Positions 1,259-11,889 of a stretch of DNA of 12,055 bases are shown here, piece after piece. The notes below the pieces were generated by a model that had not been told where the DNA came from, ran no database searches, and saw nothing but the letters and a program-made list of their open reading frames with translations. The stretch comes from Muribaculaceae bacterium (lineage in GTDB: Bacteria > Bacteroidota > Bacteroidia > Bacteroidales > Muribaculaceae). A program made the position numbers and the translations under genes. Each line of letters starts with the position of its first letter. Positions within the stretch are counted from its first letter, which is position 1. Location: NCBI GenBank assembly GCA_017619255.1, contig JAFZSS010000029.1, forward strand, positions 1 to 12,055. Direction: 5' to 3'.

Positions 1259-1878
1259 TAACGGATGAAATGTGTGCCTTGCCAGGGCTCGTATTCGGGC
1301 GTTTGGGCCGAGCCCGTACTCAGCTGGCGAATCATCCACGCCATGTTCTGGGCCATGGTCCGCATGGTCTGCATACCCTCGTCGTCGAGGCGCACCTCGC
1401 CTGGCTCACGGCCGTAGGCGATGTTCCAATACTGAGAAGTCACCAACGGCATATTCACCATCTGGAACGGCATCTGCAGCGTCTGGAACGCTGCTGTGGC
1501 GCCACCACGGCGGCATACTGCAACAGCGGCAGCGGGTTTGCCCTTCACCTTGGCACCGGCAAAGAGCATACGGTGAATCAGGTTCATCACCGAGCCTGTT
1601 GGAGTACCGTAGTACACGGGGGATCCCACAATGAGGCCGTCGGCCTCGTTCATTTTGTCGATGACCTCGTTGCAGAGGTCATCATTAAACGCGCAGTGGC
1701 CGTCATTGGCACGCACGCAACCACCACAAGAGATGCAACCGCGCACGGGCTTGGTGCCGATCCATACAATTTCGGTGGTGAAGCCCTGTTCTGTCAGGGC
1801 CTTTGCAGCCTCGCTGAGGGCAAAAAAGGTGTTGCCCTTCTCATGAGGCGAGCCATTAATCAATAAGACTTTCTTCAT
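1258..1878 (-). CDS. Flavodoxin-fold NAD(P)H-dependent oxidoreductase with iron-sulfur-type Cys motif
   Basis: The protein has 206 residues. The N-terminus MKKVLLINGSPHEKGNT is the beta strand plus FMN phosphate-binding loop of the flavodoxin-like NADPH-dependent FMN reductase family. GSPVYYGTPTG (residues 85-95) is the second FMN-contacting loop. Cysteines at 48, 51, 54 and 62 form CX2CX2CX7C. This fits the compact CX2CX2CX4-7C motif that binds a 4Fe-4S cluster in iron-sulfur flavoproteins (Isf family), so electron transfer through FMN and a cluster is likely; the physiological partner is unknown. The start is ATG 1878 (CAT at 1876-1878). It overlaps the methyltransferase start by one base, so the two genes are probably co-expressed. 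The upstream spacer is a low-complexity repeat with no clear promoter. Many plain flavin reductases keep some of these cysteines, so the cluster itself is inference. Confidence 0.85.
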   Translation of the reverse strand: MKKVLLINGSPHEKGNTFFALSEAAKALTEQGFTTEIVWIGTKPVRGCISCGGCVRANDGHCAFNDDLCNEVIDKMNEADGLIVGSPVYYGTPTGSVMNLIHRMLFAGAKVKGKPAAAVAVCRRGGATAAFQTLQMPFQMVNMPLVTSQYWNIAYGREPGEVRLDDEGMQTMRTMAQNMAWMIRQLSTGSAQTPEYEPWQGTHFIR

Positions 1879-1885
1879 ATCGTTT

Positions 1886-1955
1886 TTAGTTTCTAGTCCC
1901 TAGTCCTTAGTTTCTAGTGATAATTGCTAACAGCTAATTGCTAATAACTAATTAA
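1886..1955. repeat. Low-complexity spacer with two short tandem or direct repeats
   Basis: TTAGTTTCTAGT occurs at 1886-1897 and again at 1907-1918, separated by CCCTAGTCC. Next to it TAATTGCTAA occurs at 1921-1930 and 1935-1944, a 14-base unit repeated about 2.5 times (TAATTGCTAACAGC, TAATTGCTAATAAC, TAATTAATC). The spacer is AT-rich, unlike the GC-rich genes, and its end contains the stop codon (CTA 1948-1950) of the neighbouring minus-strand gene. It has no coding potential. It resembles slippage-derived intergenic filler of a kind seen in Bacteroidales genomes. Confidence 0.7.
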
Positions 1956-2478
1956 TCTTTGTCATGTGATAACCCATCGCCTTGAGTTGCACTGCCATGC
2001 CCATCTGGTACATCGTCTGCAGGCAAGCGACATAGGCCTTGAAGGCGTCCACCGTGCCCGGCTCGATGTCCTGGCTGTAGAGGGCACGCTTCACCCGCTC
2101 GGCACAATCGCCCACGAGTGTCTGCATCTGCTCGGCGGCGTCGCCATGAAGGTCGAGCACCTCGTCGAGGATGTACTCGTCGAGATGGTCATAACCCCGC
2201 TTGTCTCGCAGCATGAGGTACAAATCCTCCTGCTTGTCATACCGCTCCCAGTCGGTATCCCAGAACTTGGCGACCGCCATGGCGATAAGCATCATCCACC
2301 CCAGCGATGCCACGGGATAGTTGGAAAACTCACGAGCGCCGTCGGGCAGGTAGGCCTCGGCGATGGCAGGCCACTTCGCCTCCACATCGGGGCACTCGGG
2401 CAGCCGCTCATCAACAGCGTCATGTTTCAATAAGAAGCTATGCAAATCACTTAATAACGCAGTGGCAAATCTCTCCAT
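1948..2478 (-). CDS. Conserved-looking Bacteroidota protein of unknown function, mostly helical
   Basis: The protein has 176 residues and no function I can assign. Visible features are a helical N-terminus (MERFATALLSDLHSFLLKHD), a central hydrophobic segment NYPVASLGWMMLIAMAVAKFW (about 53-73), then WERY, LRDKRGYDHLDEYI and a helical C-terminus. The central hydrophobic stretch is bounded by charged segments and is more likely a buried helix than a membrane span. No signal peptide is seen. The start is taken at ATG 2478. The longer frame starts at a TTG (2508) that lies inside the putative promoter box (2506-2513), so it would not be transcribed. The pattern looks like a widespread Bacteroidales conserved hypothetical protein. 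It is the first gene of a probable minus-strand unit with the flavoprotein and methyltransferase, although a 69-base repeat spacer intervenes. Confidence 0.8.
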   Translation of the reverse strand: MERFATALLSDLHSFLLKHDAVDERLPECPDVEAKWPAIAEAYLPDGAREFSNYPVASLGWMMLIAMAVAKFWDTDWERYDKQEDLYLMLRDKRGYDHLDEYILDEVLDLHGDAAEQMQTLVGDCAERVKRALYSQDIEPGTVDAFKAYVACLQTMYQMGMAVQLKAMGYHMTKIN

Positions 2479-2505
2479 AAAAGGTCTTTTGGTTTTTCGC
2501 GGGCG

Positions 2506-2538
2506 CAAAGGTAATTAAAAATGGTTGATTCACAACAA
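2506..2538 (-). promoter_or_regulatory. Bacteroides-type promoter for the helical hypothetical gene
   Basis: On the minus strand TACCTTTG (2513-2506) matches the Bacteroides -7 consensus TAnnTTTG. A TTG-rich element (TTGTTGTG, 2538-2531) lies 17 bases upstream, near the -33 position. Transcription would start near 2499, giving a leader of about 20 bases before ATG 2478. Confidence 0.6.
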
Positions 2539-2566
2539 CTTTAACTGATTTTTTTGCATTGTGCTT

Positions 2567-2605
2567 TTTGACATGGTGAAGCCTGAACACGGCAATGTAA
2601 TTTTG
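2567..2605 (+). promoter_or_regulatory. Probable Bacteroides-type promoter of the phage-like cassette
   Basis: TAATTTTG (2598-2605) is a perfect match to the -7 box TAnnTTTG and would start transcription near 2612, about 33 bases before the portal-like ATG. A TTTG (2567-2570, within TTTTTGACA) lies upstream, but the spacing of 27 bases is longer than usual, so the -33 assignment is weak. It is divergent from the promoter at 2506-2538. Confidence 0.5.
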
Positions 2606-2644
2606 CAGCGTCGATAAGACAAAACCGATAACACCTAATACACC

Positions 2645-4075
2645 ATGAAAACACCAACCATCAACGAACAACACACCCGCGTGCTACGGGCTGCCTATCA
2701 AGCCTGGATGCGAGCCACAGGACTGCGACAGGCACGATTGAGGAACAAGCGCTTCACCTACGGCGACCAGTGGGGCGACCCGGTGAAGGACCATCAGGGC
2801 CGCATCATGACCGAGGGCGAGCACCTGGCAAGCCAGGGCTGCGAAAGCATCACCAACAACCTGATCAGACAACTGGTGAAAACCATCGTCGGCCGTTTCA
2901 GGTCACAATACATCCAGCATGAGGGGGACAAGATGGAGACGCCGTTGGATACCATCAACGAGGAGAATGAACTAGACGAACTCGACAGCCGCGCACTGGA
3001 GGAATTCCTCATCTCGGGATGCTGCTTCCAGCGCGTCGACACACGCCACGATCCCGGCGAGAGTGAACGCGTGACCGTCGAGAATGTGAATGTCAACAAG
3101 ATGTTCATCGGGCCCATGAACGATCCGCGCGCCTGGGACTGTGAACTCATTGGGCATCTGCACGACCTGAACATTGCTCAACTGCTCAGACGCGTAGCCG
3201 ACGGCAACCCACGCAAGGCAGCATGGGTACGGCGCCTCTACACCGATAACGCCGAGAGCCGTCAAGTCGATTTCATCACACGGTTGGGTGCCGACTCTCA
3301 ACTGGGGACCGACTTCTGGCATGCCAGTGACGGCAAGTGCCGCGCCATCGAGGTGTGGACCCTCGAGAGCCGCGAGGTCATCGTGTGCCACAATCGGCAC
3401 GAGGGCACGCTCACCGTGGAGCCAGCGCCTGTGGGACGACGCATGAAGAGCAGGCCTGAAGTCACCACCCGTTGGGACATCGCCACTGTGTGGCACTGCC
3501 GGTGGTTCAGCCCCATGGGCGACCTGCTGTGTGAATATGACTCACCCTGGAAACACGGCAGCCACCCGTTTATCATCAAACTCTACCCGCTCACCGACGG
3601 CGAGGTGCATGCCGTCGTCGAGGACATCATCGACACACAGAAACATGTCAACCGCATGATTTCCCTGCTCGACCAGGTGATGCGGACCAGTGCCAAGGGC
3701 GTATTGCTCTTCCCCGAGACCGCGCTGCCCGACGGATGGACCTGGGAGGACGCCCGACGCATCTGGTCCAGCGCCAACGGCCTGTTGCCCTACAATCCGC
3801 GCTACAGCGACGCCAAGCCTGAACAAATCAGTGCCAACGGCACCAACATCGGCGCCTACCAGATGATTGAGCTGCAGATGAAACTGTTTGAGGAAATCAG
3901 CGGTGTGAGCGGTGCTTTGCAAGGCAAAGACCCGACCGTAAACAGCGCCAACGCCTATCAGTTGCAAAGCGAGAACGCCAACATCGCCCTGAGCGATGTG
4001 TTTGAGACCTTTGAAACCTTCCGCCGCCAACGCGATCGCAAAATCACATTACTTATCAACCATCTAAACGATTAA
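2645..4075 (+). CDS. Phage portal-like protein (P22-type)
   Basis: The protein has 476 residues and a complete frame. The N-terminus carries a helix, then RNKRFTYGDQWGD (residues 33-45), the YGDQW-like signature common in portal proteins, and NNLIRQLVKTIVGRF. Mid-protein WHCRWFSPMGDLLCEYDSPW and HPFIIKLYPLTDGEVHAVVEDI resemble portal wing and stem regions. QKHVNRMISLLDQVMRTSAKG resembles the long tunnel helix, and the ending GVSGALQGKDPTVNSANAYQLQSEN then a charged helix is typical of portals. Portals are dodecameric rings at a capsid vertex through which DNA passes. Phage P22 portal is about 725 residues, so the long C-terminal barrel is absent; many other portals are of this size. ATG 2645 follows an A-rich leader and a -7 box. 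The gene downstream is 4 bases away. Base composition matches the neighbouring host genes. No terminase gene adjoins it, which is unusual. The family call rests on pattern recognition. Confidence 0.72.
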   Translation: MKTPTINEQHTRVLRAAYQAWMRATGLRQARLRNKRFTYGDQWGDPVKDHQGRIMTEGEHLASQGCESITNNLIRQLVKTIVGRFRSQYIQHEGDKMETPLDTINEENELDELDSRALEEFLISGCCFQRVDTRHDPGESERVTVENVNVNKMFIGPMNDPRAWDCELIGHLHDLNIAQLLRRVADGNPRKAAWVRRLYTDNAESRQVDFITRLGADSQLGTDFWHASDGKCRAIEVWTLESREVIVCHNRHEGTLTVEPAPVGRRMKSRPEVTTRWDIATVWHCRWFSPMGDLLCEYDSPWKHGSHPFIIKLYPLTDGEVHAVVEDIIDTQKHVNRMISLLDQVMRTSAKGVLLFPETALPDGWTWEDARRIWSSANGLLPYNPRYSDAKPEQISANGTNIGAYQMIELQMKLFEEISGVSGALQGKDPTVNSANAYQLQSENANIALSDVFETFETFRRQRDRKITLLINHLND

Positions 4076-4079
4076 TACC

Positions 4080-4484
4080 ATGAACGAAGAGAACATTCTC
4101 AATGAACCGGCAATGCCGACAACGGTAACGCCACCGCCCTTTTGCCCGAGTGAACAACAACAGGAAGTGCAATCCCAAGAGCCGAGCGCCTCCCTCACCC
4201 TTGAAGAGCGCATCCATGCGCTCGGCCTTGACGAGAGCGCCACCGGCAAGCTGCTCAAGCTGACTACCGGCCTGGATTCCCGTGACTTCACAACCGCACT
4301 GCTTGAAACCCTCGCCCGAGGAGTCAACCACGACGAGGATGTCCAGAATGCTGATGCCGCCGGTTACCTGCGCGGCCGCAACGAGAAAATCGAAGCCGTC
4401 CTGCATCAGCGACCTCAAGACGAGGAAGAGCCTGAAAGCACTCCCGTCTTTCCCCGTTACTGCCGCCGCAGTATCTGGGACTAA
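4080..4484 (+). CDS. Small acidic protein in scaffold position of the phage-like cassette
   Basis: The protein has 134 residues and I do not recognise its family. Residues 1-38 are disordered-looking and rich in Pro, Gln and Glu. Residues 39-110 are predicted helical, with a leucine-rich segment (LTLEERIHALGLDESATGKLLKL, read in pieces) and NADAAGYLRGRNEKIEAVL. Residues 112-121 are acidic (QDEEEPES). The last fourteen residues, TPVFPRYCRRSIWD, are basic and aromatic. It starts 4 bases after the portal-like stop, in a TAATACC-ATG leader, so it is certainly in the same transcript. Between a portal and a capsid gene the expected product is a scaffolding protein, which is typically helical, acidic and equipped with a basic C-terminal capsid-binding tail. 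That role is an inference from position and composition only; a chaperone or cargo adaptor are alternatives. Confidence 0.75.
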   Translation: MNEENILNEPAMPTTVTPPPFCPSEQQQEVQSQEPSASLTLEERIHALGLDESATGKLLKLTTGLDSRDFTTALLETLARGVNHDEDVQNADAAGYLRGRNEKIEAVLHQRPQDEEEPESTPVFPRYCRRSIWD

Positions 4485-4494
4485 GCATGTAGAG

Positions 4495-4608
4495 TGAGAA
4501 TTTAGAAATTAGGAGTTTCATCTCTCTTCAAGCCGCCCAACCCCATCTATTCTCTCTACTCTAATATCTATACTCTTTTCTCTATTATCTATTATCTAAA
4601 TCAAATTA
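4495..4608. repeat. Pyrimidine-rich low-complexity spacer inside the cassette
   Basis: The 132 bases between the scaffold-like and capsid-like genes contain no gene. From about 4545 it is a string of TCTAT/TCTCT-type words (TCTATTATCTATTATCTAA at 4581-4599), preceded by GAATTTAGAAATTAGGAG (4498-4515). No TAnnTTTG box is visible. It resembles in character the repeat spacer at 1886-1955 and looks like host-type intergenic filler, unusual inside a phage morphogenesis operon. Confidence 0.6.
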
Positions 4609-4616
4609 TCAAAACC

Positions 4617-6026
4617 ATGAACATCAACAGTTTTACCAAGGCGTTGCGTTGGATGCGACGCCACAAGAAGTTAGTCATCTTTGTCATCACCATGATTCTC
4701 ATCGCCATCTTGTCATCGTGCCTCATGGGCGCGCAAGCCAGTGGCGCCACTATGGCTGTGGGCATGCTCATCGCCGGCGTTGAAGACGGCAAGCATGTCG
4801 TTGACGGTCCCTTGACCACCGACCTCACCCGTGAGGGTTCTCCCGACCTGTTGCTCAACGAGATTGACCAACAGATCGTGAAAATCCGACCCATGTCCAC
4901 ACCCATTGACCAGATTTCGCGCTATGGCGGCAGCAAACATGCCGGCAGCATGGTAGTGGATTACTACAGCGTGGACACAAAGGCGACCAAAGCCAAACTG
5001 ACCGCTGATGTCGCCGAGTCGTCGCCCTCGGCAGGCGATGATGCCCCCATGGTCGTTATCAGCACCAGCAACAACGACATCTTTGACCCCACCGACACGA
5101 TTCTCGTGCAGAACACTTCGGGCTATGAGGCCGACGGAGAGACCGAGAGCGACCAGGACCTGATGCTCTATGTCGTGAACCGTGATGCCAACGGCGTGAC
5201 GGTCATGGCAGTCAACGGACTCACCATCAACGGTGTGAAAGGCTGTTTCCCCGAGATCACATCAGGAAGCACTCTCGTGCGCATGGGGCGTGCCGCCAGC
5301 GAACTCGATGTGCAGTCCCCACAGTTTGAGTCCTTGCCCAAGAAGAGCCGCAACCTGTGCCAGATCTTCAAGATGCAGGTCGAGCAGTCCACGCTGCAAC
5401 GCCTGTCCAACAAGGAGGTGGGCTGGACGATGAGCGACCAGGAGGAAGCTGCGGTCTATGACATGCGCCTGGGCATGGAGAAATCCTACCTCTTCGGCGT
5501 GGCACGACAAATGTGGGATGCCAACAAGAAAGAGTATGTCTATTTCACCGGCGGCATCTGGAATCAAGCAGGCAAGGAGTTTTATCTCGAAGCCATGACA
5601 GAGTTGACCGAGGCCAAGATGGTGGACCTGATGCGCGACGCCTTCACCGGCAACACGGGCAGCAAGCGCAAGATTCTGATTGGCGGCAGCGGCCTCATCA
5701 GCAAAATCAGCAAGCTCGACTACACCCGTGTCATCACCGCCGGCCAGCATGTGAGCAAATGGGGCATCGATTTCACTGAGTTGCGATCGAAGTTCGGTTG
5801 CCTGTATGTGCTGCTCAGCGAGGTGTTTGACGAGGTGGGCATGACCAACGACGGCATCGTCATCGACCCCGAGTATATCCAGAAGTACACCCACATCCCC
5901 TTCAGCACCGAACAGCTCAACCTCAAGAAGAGCGGAGTGCGCAATGTGGACGCGCTGGTGATGACCGAGGCATCATGCCTGGTGCTGCGCTACCCCAAGG
6001 CGCACATGCGCATCACGAGCCGATGA
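4617..6026 (+). CDS. Phage major capsid-like protein (HK97 fold, DUF5309-like) with N-terminal membrane/lipoprotein signal
   Basis: The protein has 469 residues. From residue about 75 onward it follows the pattern of HK97-fold capsid proteins of the DUF5309/SU10 type: STPIDQISRYGGSKHAGSM (94-112), a central KSRNLCQIFKMQVEQS strand-helix region, then DMRLGMEKSYLFGVARQ. KWGIDFTELRSKFGCLYVL, DGIVIDPEYIQKY and the ending TEASCLVLRYPKAHMRI follow, typical of the A-domain and C-terminus. Such proteins build icosahedral shells. The first 43 residues are unlike a capsid: a basic stretch (RWMRRHKK, 11-18), a hydrophobic run 19-32, then LSSC (32-35), which fits a lipobox with Cys35. ATG 4617 is chosen because AT-rich noncoding sequence ends in AAAACC just before it. 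Internal Met37 or Met46 would give a plain cytoplasmic capsid but have no AT-rich leader. The stop overlaps the peptidase start (ATGA), so the two are translationally coupled. The capsid call is by pattern. Confidence 0.72.
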   Translation: MNINSFTKALRWMRRHKKLVIFVITMILIAILSSCLMGAQASGATMAVGMLIAGVEDGKHVVDGPLTTDLTREGSPDLLLNEIDQQIVKIRPMSTPIDQISRYGGSKHAGSMVVDYYSVDTKATKAKLTADVAESSPSAGDDAPMVVISTSNNDIFDPTDTILVQNTSGYEADGETESDQDLMLYVVNRDANGVTVMAVNGLTINGVKGCFPEITSGSTLVRMGRAASELDVQSPQFESLPKKSRNLCQIFKMQVEQSTLQRLSNKEVGWTMSDQEEAAVYDMRLGMEKSYLFGVARQMWDANKKEYVYFTGGIWNQAGKEFYLEAMTELTEAKMVDLMRDAFTGNTGSKRKILIGGSGLISKISKLDYTRVITAGQHVSKWGIDFTELRSKFGCLYVLLSEVFDEVGMTNDGIVIDPEYIQKYTHIPFSTEQLNLKKSGVRNVDALVMTEASCLVLRYPKAHMRITSR

Positions 6027-6421
6027 AATACTTCACCATCCCCGAACTGATCCGCTCTGAGACCGCCCGCCATCTGGACATCGACAACACTCCTCCCGCC
6101 AGTGCCGTTACGGCGCTTCACGCCTTGGTGGACAATGTGCTGGACCCGCTGCGTGAGGCGTGGGGAGGTCCCATCAGGGTCAACAGCGGCTATCGCTGTC
6201 CTAAGTTGAACAGACTGGTAGGTGGCACGCCCAACAGCCAGCACCAGCGCGGCGAGGCCGCCGACATCACCGTCGGCTCCCGCTCTGCCAACCGCCGCTT
6301 GCTGGCGCTCATCAAGCGGCTCGACCTGCCCGTTGACCAGTGCATCGACGAGAAAGGTTGCCGCTGGATTCATGTGAGCCACCGCCCCGGCCACAACCGC
6401 CGCCTCTACATGATATTCTGA
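6023..6421 (+). CDS. M15-family zinc peptidase (peptidoglycan D,D- or L,D-type), endolysin-like
   Basis: The protein has 132 residues. It shows the compact M15 architecture (Peptidase_M15_3-like): VNSGYRCPKLNRLVGG (53-68), SQHQRGEAADI (72-82) with zinc ligands His74 and Asp81 in the HxxGxAxD motif, and WIHVSH (115-120) with ligand His117. Asp109 or Glu110 may act as the catalytic acid/base. Such enzymes cut cross-links or stem peptides in peptidoglycan; phage versions serve in lysis, host versions in wall remodelling. The ATG at 6023 shares ATGA with the capsid-like stop, so it belongs to the same operon. An upstream ATG in this frame (5975) lies well inside the capsid gene and is unlikely. 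There is no signal peptide or membrane segment, so it would need a holin-like partner, lysis from within, or packaging to reach the wall. A strong terminator follows. Confidence 0.9.
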   Translation: MKYFTIPELIRSETARHLDIDNTPPASAVTALHALVDNVLDPLREAWGGPIRVNSGYRCPKLNRLVGGTPNSQHQRGEAADITVGSRSANRRLLALIKRLDLPVDQCIDEKGCRWIHVSHRPGHNRRLYMIF

Positions 6422-10440: not shown

Positions 10441-11889
10441 CTATTTTCCCTCGAAAAGATTGCAAAGGAAGGTGCCTATCTGATCCTTGATGCTGGCACG
10501 CGAGCAGGTGAAATTATTGACCAGCACGGCAAAGGCATAGTGGGGATTGTCGGCGGGATAATAGCCAACAAAGCACTGCACATGGCGCATGCTGCCCGAC
10601 TTGAGCACGATGCGCTCACTCAACGGGTTGTTCTTGAGGGTTTCACCGACGCGGTCCGATGCGGTGGGCATCAGGTCGCACAACCGCACGCCGTCAAAGC
10701 TGCGATGGGCCATCATCGTGAGCATGTCGCCAAAGAAGTTGACCGAGGCCTTATTGGCTCTTGCCAATCCGCTGCCATCACGCATGAACAATGGCTCGGT
10801 ATTCACACCCTGCAGTTCCAGCCAATGCTTGACCGCCTCGACACCGATGGCATCAAGGTCGCTGGGCATGTTCTCCTGACCCTTGAGCTCCCATTCGCGC
10901 GCACCGATGGCACGCAACAAGGCATGGGCAAACATGTTGTCGCTGCGATCCAGCAGCGAGGTGATAATCTCGGTCAATTCGGGCGACTTGTGCAACACGA
11001 GCAGGGAGCGTTCAGCCTGACTGACTTCATCACGAGCCGTGGCATAGTAGTCATAGCGTATTTCACTGCTGCGCAACAAGGCACGCTCGACACTATCGAC
11101 CAGCATCGGTGCCGGCGTGGGGTTGGCATAGGTGTCGCGGTAAGACTTGGTGGAAGACGAGTTACCCGTAAGCACCAATGCCGGAACACTGTAATCCAAA
11201 TAGGGCGTCACATTGTTGCGATTGCGATGAGAGCGGCAACGGCTGATGACCTTCACTCCAGGCACGGAAGGCTTGATGGAAGATTGCGTCAAGCGGCCAC
11301 GAGAGTCAAGGGTGAATGACACTGTCATCAGGTTGTCATGGAAATTCAGGGCATGAACAGCAGTGCCGTAGTCATAGGCCAAATCTTCCACTTCCCACTC
11401 GTTGTGATAGTAAGGATAACCGTAATAAGTGTCATCGGCGATGACCATACCCTCGACACGGGTGATGCCACGGGCTTGCAAGGCTGCGATAATTTCGTCA
11501 ACGATGTTAGCCTGATTGGGCAGATACACCGAGCCCAGCGTGGGGTCCCCCAAGCCACGGATGACGATATTGCCCTTGAAACAGGCGTCCACCACCTCGC
11601 CGTCAAGATAGACAGGCGTCTCGAAGAGGAAATGCGGGCCCATCAAGCCCAAAGCGGCCGATGACACCACCGTCTTCATCGTCGAAGCGGTGATGTTGGC
11701 CTGGTCTTGGCGGAAGCCGGCAATGGCTTTCGCCGAATCCAGGTCCACGACGGTCACGCCCACCGCGGCATAACGCAACGAACTGTGGGAAACAAACAGG
11801 TCCACCGCCTCCTGAGCGGTATAAGCCATAAGCGGTAATGTAGCGATCAGCGCTAACAGTGTCGACAGCAGGGTTCTTCTCTTGATCAT
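10441..11889 (-). CDS. dacB: D-alanyl-D-alanine carboxypeptidase/endopeptidase, PBP4 (DacB) type
   Basis: The protein has 482 residues, the usual size for PBP4-type class C penicillin-binding proteins. It begins with a Sec signal peptide (MIKRRTLLSTLLALIATLPLMA, cut near Ala22). Active-site motifs are all present: STMK at 69-72 with nucleophile Ser69, SDN at 316-318, and KSG at 430-432. Family landmarks are FKGNIVIRGLGDPTL, VEGMVIADDTYY, NEWEVEDLAYDYG and RDGSGLARANKAS. It removes the terminal D-Ala of peptidoglycan pentapeptide and cuts D-Ala-mDAP cross-links in the periplasm. The start was set at ATG 11889 because the signal peptide begins there; the frame stays open further upstream to about 12048 but that part overlaps the preceding gene. 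It follows that gene by 28 bases, so they are probably co-transcribed. Identification is secure. Confidence 0.95.
   Translation of the reverse strand: MIKRRTLLSTLLALIATLPLMAYTAQEAVDLFVSHSSLRYAAVGVTVVDLDSAKAIAGFRQDQANITASTMKTVVSSAALGLMGPHFLFETPVYLDGEVVDACFKGNIVIRGLGDPTLGSVYLPNQANIVDEIIAALQARGITRVEGMVIADDTYYGYPYYHNEWEVEDLAYDYGTAVHALNFHDNLMTVSFTLDSRGRLTQSSIKPSVPGVKVISRCRSHRNRNNVTPYLDYSVPALVLTGNSSSTKSYRDTYANPTPAPMLVDSVERALLRSSEIRYDYYATARDEVSQAERSLLVLHKSPELTEIITSLLDRSDNMFAHALLRAIGAREWELKGQENMPSDLDAIGVEAVKHWLELQGVNTEPLFMRDGSGLARANKASVNFFGDMLTMMAHRSFDGVRLCDLMPTASDRVGETLKNNPLSERIVLKSGSMRHVQCFVGYYPADNPHYAFAVLVNNFTCSRASIKDQIGTFLCNLFEGK

Follow-up and report, generated by a model that had tools for sequence, protein, structure and literature searches.

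Functional gene transfer agents have been described in the Alphaproteobacteria, a sulfate reducer, an archaeon and a spirochaete (PMC9662315), and one has lately been described in Faecalibacterium (PMC12946183). For the Bacteroidales, a search of the open-access literature, which did not extend to preprints, found none. The window analysed here, meaning the whole stretch of 12,055 nucleotides that makes up positions 1 to 12,055 of contig JAFZSS010000029.1 (assembly GCA_017619255.1) of a Muribaculaceae bacterium, carries four intact genes of phage type on the plus strand, encoding a portal protein, a small acidic protein, a capsid protein and an M15 peptidase, and these form one of at least two loci of particle genes in this genome. 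The Bacteroides phages BS-TP4 (PQ571277), BKO1-TP3 and BF1-TP2 possess capsid and portal proteins homologous to those of the window, at 35-41% identity in all three, and BS-TP4 also shares with the host set a terminase, an acidic protein (weakly) and a relative of the nozzle. We consider it probable that the dispersed set to which the window belongs is an independently domesticated short-tailed phage, related to BS-TP4, which the host retains under its own control as a particle that packages DNA, with a gene transfer agent as its likeliest identity. The set looks host-owned because it is near-universal in the family, constrained, inherited with the genus, split beyond the size of a phage head and, in one genus, partly governed by one promoter type.

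An earlier note on this DNA had described the cassette as lacking terminase, which holds for the window and fails for the genome as a whole: on contig C42 (5.8 kb) of the same assembly an intact large terminase (3672-5579, 635 aa; phrog_2, 2.2e-19) lies downstream of a nozzle protein (1651-3642, 663 aa) of the family of BS-TP4 gp26. The terminase query, BS-TP4 gp7, has matches among terminase families and a weak one to T4 gp17 (2.5e-4), and the Walker, coupling and nuclease residues are kept in 49 aligned host copies, picked for the tree and the motif alignment as long matches, with gaps in the nuclease motif in two to three rows. The structure model of the nozzle (mean pLDDT 87, pTM 0.77) retrieves from the PDB, as its first 15 matches, exclusively phage tail, portal-tail, nozzle or virion entries, from HRP29, E1004, T7, Pa223, SU10, P22, GP4, Sf6 and other phages; since the query-normalised TM-scores are 0.32-0.49 and the rmsd 14-42, this is a match at the level of the fold only, over gapped alignments. 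As modelled, then, the C42 protein is a tail nozzle of the T7/P22 type. A PDB sequence search with the nozzle alignment gave no match, and hhalign relates the nozzle-like family F4 to BS-TP4 gp26 at 76% only. Likewise, hhalign did not demonstrate a relation of the connector-like family F3 to phage gp12 or gp13, and the F3 profile weakly matches a gp13-like gene of a prophage (8.1e-5). Taken together, the families and folds of portal, capsid, terminase and nozzle are those of tailed phages, from which the set is derived.

The breadth of its distribution was assessed in 148 genomes of the family, mostly metagenome bins and including the window's own. Relatives of the capsid were found in 139, of the portal in 141, of the terminase in 138 and of the nozzle in 139, counts that include genomes whose sole match is a copy of prophage type; rows judged host-type among the matches listed number at least 129, 121, 124 and 128, respectively. 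F3 occurs in 127 of these genomes and the small protein F6 in 52, and for comparison rpoB was recovered in 135 and the phage capsid family PF05065 in 18. At the level of the order, capsid and terminase each match 19 of 237 genomes, the identical 19; these come from family f1 and from six further families, apart from a single genome whose copy is phage-like. Capsid copies in the Bacteroidales families f19, f25, f57, f64, f83 and f102 are 50-58% identical to that of the window, a value equalled by many copies inside the window's own family. Only a few of the capsid, portal and terminase matches listed contain internal stops. Gene calls in the fetched loci were made by a simple longest-frame picker. 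True prophages carrying more distant copies coexist with the host-type genes, for example on G062:C56, where the gene order is like that of BS-TP4.

A second line of evidence is the position of the genes on the chromosome. Among the matches listed, all four genes could be located in 108 genomes, taking only copies judged host-type, and in 99 of these they occupy two to four separate places (one place in 9 genomes, two in 44, three in 37 and four in 18); one place means within 15 kb, and different contigs were counted as apart, though contig ends could hide adjacency. The commonest arrangement, in 36 genomes of the same matches, sets capsid and portal apart from nozzle and terminase. In the one-contig genome G143 the terminase starts at 937,076, the portal at 1,358,434 and the capsid at 1,893,624, so that terminase and capsid starts are 957 kb apart. 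Judged by gene geometry alone, the particle would be unable to package its own complete gene set.

The descent of the genes was followed in trees of capsid, portal and terminase with 50, 50 and 49 host rows from 23 genera, the phage rows being BS-TP4 and one prophage only. In all three a branch supported at 100 divides the host rows from the phage rows. Changes of genus label number 24 for the capsid and 22 each for portal and terminase, against a minimum of 22 and an average of about 41 with shuffled labels. The identical 14 genomes, from six genera, form a clade in each tree (support 99, 90 and 98), although their genes mostly lie apart. The distances of the three genes are mutually correlated in 24 genomes (0.59, 0.32 and 0.34). 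The trees thus show vertical descent at the level of the genus. In window-type loci the median pairwise dN/dS is 0.127 for the portal, 0.184 for the capsid, 0.164 for the M15 peptidase and 0.319 for the acidic protein, compared with 0.064-0.146 for seven neighbouring host genes, and the four particle genes of the window are under purifying selection. Since the core genes persist together in evolution while lying apart, selection would be for the particle and not for a linked element.

How might dispersed operons be linked to common control? Upstream of the window's portal gene lies a bipartite element with an unusually long spacer (Table 1). A spacing of 27 or 26 bases separates its TTTG box from its TAnnTTTG box in 34 of 41 portal operons (with few exceptions, these are related loci of window type), and the same 26-27 spacing occurs in three of six nozzle genes as against 8 of 930 host operon-first genes, in which the usual spacing is 19 and 20 (74/930). 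A weight matrix trained solely on 33 window-type portal promoters, with the 99th host percentile as threshold, is passed by 23 of the 27 genes that encode the acidic protein at other loci, each heading a scaffold-capsid operon without a preceding portal gene, and by two of six nozzle genes, those of the window's genome and of G137. A strict pattern search in 61 genomes of the window's genus gave 63 sites, spread over 36 genomes, and no site for the reversed pattern. Of the 63 sites, 37 have the start of a particle gene no more than 700 bases away (a 250-base rule gives fewer); this gene is the portal at 25 sites, the acidic protein at six, the nozzle at three, and the capsid, F3 and M15-portal at one each. 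Because the portal, acidic-protein and G137 nozzle sites were known when the pattern was designed, only two nozzle sites and those of F3, M15 and capsid are independent. We infer from these sites a putative promoter type shared by dispersed particle operons in the window's genus, among them portal, scaffold-capsid and nozzle-terminase operons.

The same promoter type precedes, at seven loci, genes for AAA_25/DnaB-like ATPases and for proteins matching DUF7833 or DUF6291, some of these matches falling below the Pfam cut-off; these genes are candidate further members of the regulon. In one genome, G385, five promoter-like sites are nearly identical and have no long frame closely downstream; they are apparently a small repeated sequence.

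Several observations weigh against the reading of a host-owned, jointly controlled packaging particle. In 24 genomes the capsid, portal and terminase distances are not significantly correlated with those of one rpoB domain (-0.12, 0.11 and 0.24), so that deeper congruence with the host is not significant by that measure. The weight matrix is passed by none of seven terminase genes and by none of the capsid genes (0/31 and 0/25); it also fails for F3 (0/2) and M15 (0/3), and of the other portal genes it accepts one of six, on a window-type contig. The strict pattern has no site in 25 of the 61 genomes of the genus, G143 included, and for 26 of its 63 sites no particle gene starts as near as 700 bases. 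In genus g26 two genomes yielded no capsid, portal or terminase; the F3 search gave no match in either the window's genome or its close relative G137; and no small terminase, holin or tail fibres were identified for the particle set.

The earlier note had entertained several explanations, and its domesticated, gene-transfer-agent-like head module is the one borne out, by near-universal presence, purifying selection, genus-faithful trees and host flanks. It had named as adverse the finding of the genes only inside complete prophages, or of dN/dS near 1; host-type copies lie outside prophages, which carry more distant ones, and dN/dS is far below 1. Its satellite head kit and self-contained nanocompartment are not supported, given that a terminase retaining its catalytic motifs and a nozzle are kept elsewhere in the genome, joined in most relatives by a connector-like protein. 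A terminase-free capsid module or nanocompartment could draw on the absence of a terminase gene inside the window, and was rejected when the terminase search matched the window's own genome, as it did nearly all of the family genomes (138/148); an encapsulin-like compartment would be a shell without packaging machinery, and here terminase, a portal in the same operon and the nozzle are all kept, so that we give this explanation hardly any weight. As improbable, in our estimate, is an undecayed remnant of an old prophage: the phage origin is clear, and the dN/dS range of 0.127-0.319, the scarcity of internal stops among the matches listed, the genus-faithful trees and a near-universal presence that resembles rpoB (135) and not PF05065 (18) led us to reject it. 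That the genes represent a true phage or satellite lineage, still mobile and integrating often, is very improbable. Prophages of the same lineage do exist, as on G062:C56; the host-type genes, by contrast, are scattered between host genes at separate places, follow the genus and fall in a clade of their own, separate from the two phage sequences that were tested, where a satellite or prophage would be a contiguous element with integrase or replication genes. No phage integrase or replication gene was found among the window genes scanned, the relatives' neighbourhoods having been compared only with window and BS-TP4 proteins and not individually scanned for integrases.

More weight attaches to readings that retain a domesticated particle and alter its task. 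The same gene evidence would suit a PBSX-like particle, which would package host DNA yet serve to kill competitors and not to transfer genes; PBSX itself packages pieces of host DNA 13 kb long and behaves as a bacteriocin does (PMC7667829). Sequence does not by itself separate killing from transfer, and we judge this alternative unlikely, if the least so of those considered. Slightly less likely still is a domesticated particle or DNA-handling machine that serves a different purpose, for instance the release of DNA for biofilm, a phage decoy or a stress function. Its packaging genes are conserved without known function, and other genes, including the DnaB-like ATPases, stand behind the same promoter type; against this, none of terminase, portal, capsid and nozzle has been lost, suggesting filled, tailed particles. 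Since these four are conserved without a contiguous genome of their own, the simplest job would be the packaging of host DNA in the manner of a gene transfer agent.

In such a gene transfer agent a host regulator would switch on the dispersed operons together, scaffold and capsid would assemble a head on the portal, and the terminase would fill it with host DNA, because a DNA molecule small enough for a phage head could not hold the whole gene set; nozzle and connector would close the head as a short tail, the M15 peptidase would help release, and neighbouring cells would receive the DNA. If this is true, then, with a set whose prevalence in a gut and rumen family roughly matches that of rpoB, chromosomal DNA could be packaged, and perhaps also exchanged, by many gut Bacteroidales via a host-owned particle. 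The mouse-gut transductomics study reports 46 contigs with coverage of generalized-transduction or gene-transfer-agent type; its largest taxon is the Bacteroidetes, accounting for 83 of 186 contigs with some pattern of mobilisation (PMC7667829). A test may therefore be feasible with read sets that are already available. The broader proposition, for which we see the balance as even, is that an ancient, independently domesticated short-tailed gene transfer agent is common to seven Bacteroidales families, one of them dominant in the mammalian gut and rumen, that even its core head genes are scattered along the chromosome and co-activated via a dedicated promoter class, and that it could underlie some of the unassigned host-DNA packaging in mouse-gut Bacteroidetes.

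Table 1. Features of the particle locus in the window
Feature	Position	Strand	Evidence
Bipartite long-spacer promoter-like element of the portal operon, GCTTTTTG + 27 bases + TAATTTTGCAGCGT	2563..2611	+	Conserved in 35 aligned loci; putative function
Portal protein, P22 type	2645..4075	+	Pfam P22_portal 3.7e-20; phrog_156 2.2e-45
Small acidic protein, scaffold position, relative of BS-TP4 gp10	4080..4484	+	phrog_22323 0.0011 (weak); position
Major capsid protein, SU10 type, with N-terminal hydrophobic segment	4617..6026	+	Pfam SU10_MCP 6.3e-52; phrog_26635 4.3e-93
M15 peptidase, endolysin family, overlapping the capsid stop	6023..6421	+	PF08291 8.9e-19; phrog_894 endolysin 2.1e-34

The family matches in Table 1 confirm the four genes much as first described, and the two further statements of the earlier note about their setting, host genes on both sides and a base composition like that of the neighbours, also stand. 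To the left lie the C-terminus of RecA (3-356), a methyltransferase, an FMN reductase and one gene without known function, to the right glycerate kinase and others, and the G+C of the cassette resembles theirs. A relative of the RecA stretch is also found upstream in some related loci, L004, L013, L020, L076 and L078 among them. Of the portal and capsid folds expected earlier, the family profiles match both, and the capsid structure model, with a mean pLDDT of 56.6, was of insufficient quality for a fold search. The portal match stops at profile position 443 of 594, compared with 569 for BS-TP4, and a PDB sequence search with the portal gave a single irrelevant match (E 0.62); the capsid profile matches the capsid of phage VP1 in the PDB (2.8e-10). 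The gene of family phrog_22323 in BS-TP4, gp10, lies directly upstream of the capsid gene, and this position together with the weak match suggests a putative scaffold role for the acidic protein. For the M15 gene a longer open frame (5975-6421) exists; the start at 6023, giving 132 aa, is more likely because of its ATGA overlap with the capsid stop and because 132 aa are called in several relatives. At the capsid N-terminus (4617-4725) a hydrophobic stretch closes on LSSC, which we take to be lipobox-like; the hydrophobic start is also present in BS-TP4 and absent from several other genera.

An element of about 38 kb lies inside the capsid gene near codon 252 in loci L002 and L003 (IMG/VR contig IMGVR_UViG_3300011002_000616), and carries a large serine recombinase (L002:8434-9894; Resolvase 7.4e-17, phrog_95 integrase 2.2e-44). 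Two other genomes, with loci L076 and L078, have at the same codon (near 10753-10801) a short frame-breaking insert that resembles the ends of this element. The insertion is possibly a mobile element aimed at the capsid gene of the particle.

BS-TP4 is one contiguous phage genome with a longer portal, whereas the host copies lie apart between host genes and form a separate clade in three trees. RcGTA keeps most of its structural genes in one cluster. The gene transfer agents of Rhodobacterales, Bartonella and Brachyspira belong to other phyla, and in the present set capsid, portal and terminase are themselves separated; by their description they resemble it in being derived from Caudoviricetes and vertically inherited, and RcGTA and probably BhGTA are, like it, dispersed over several loci (PMC9662315). 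PBSX of Bacillus subtilis, likewise compared by description, shares with the proposed particle domestication and the packaging of host DNA, and differs in being a single defective prophage that serves killing rather than transfer (PMC7667829). FpGTA of Faecalibacterium differs in that its host belongs to the Bacillota, in a 10.5 kb operon uniting terminase, portal, scaffold and capsid genes, and in that its particles and their DNA have been observed. As described in PMC12946183, it is like this set in belonging to a gut bacterium, in its two operons lying apart and in products resembling those of short-tailed phages.

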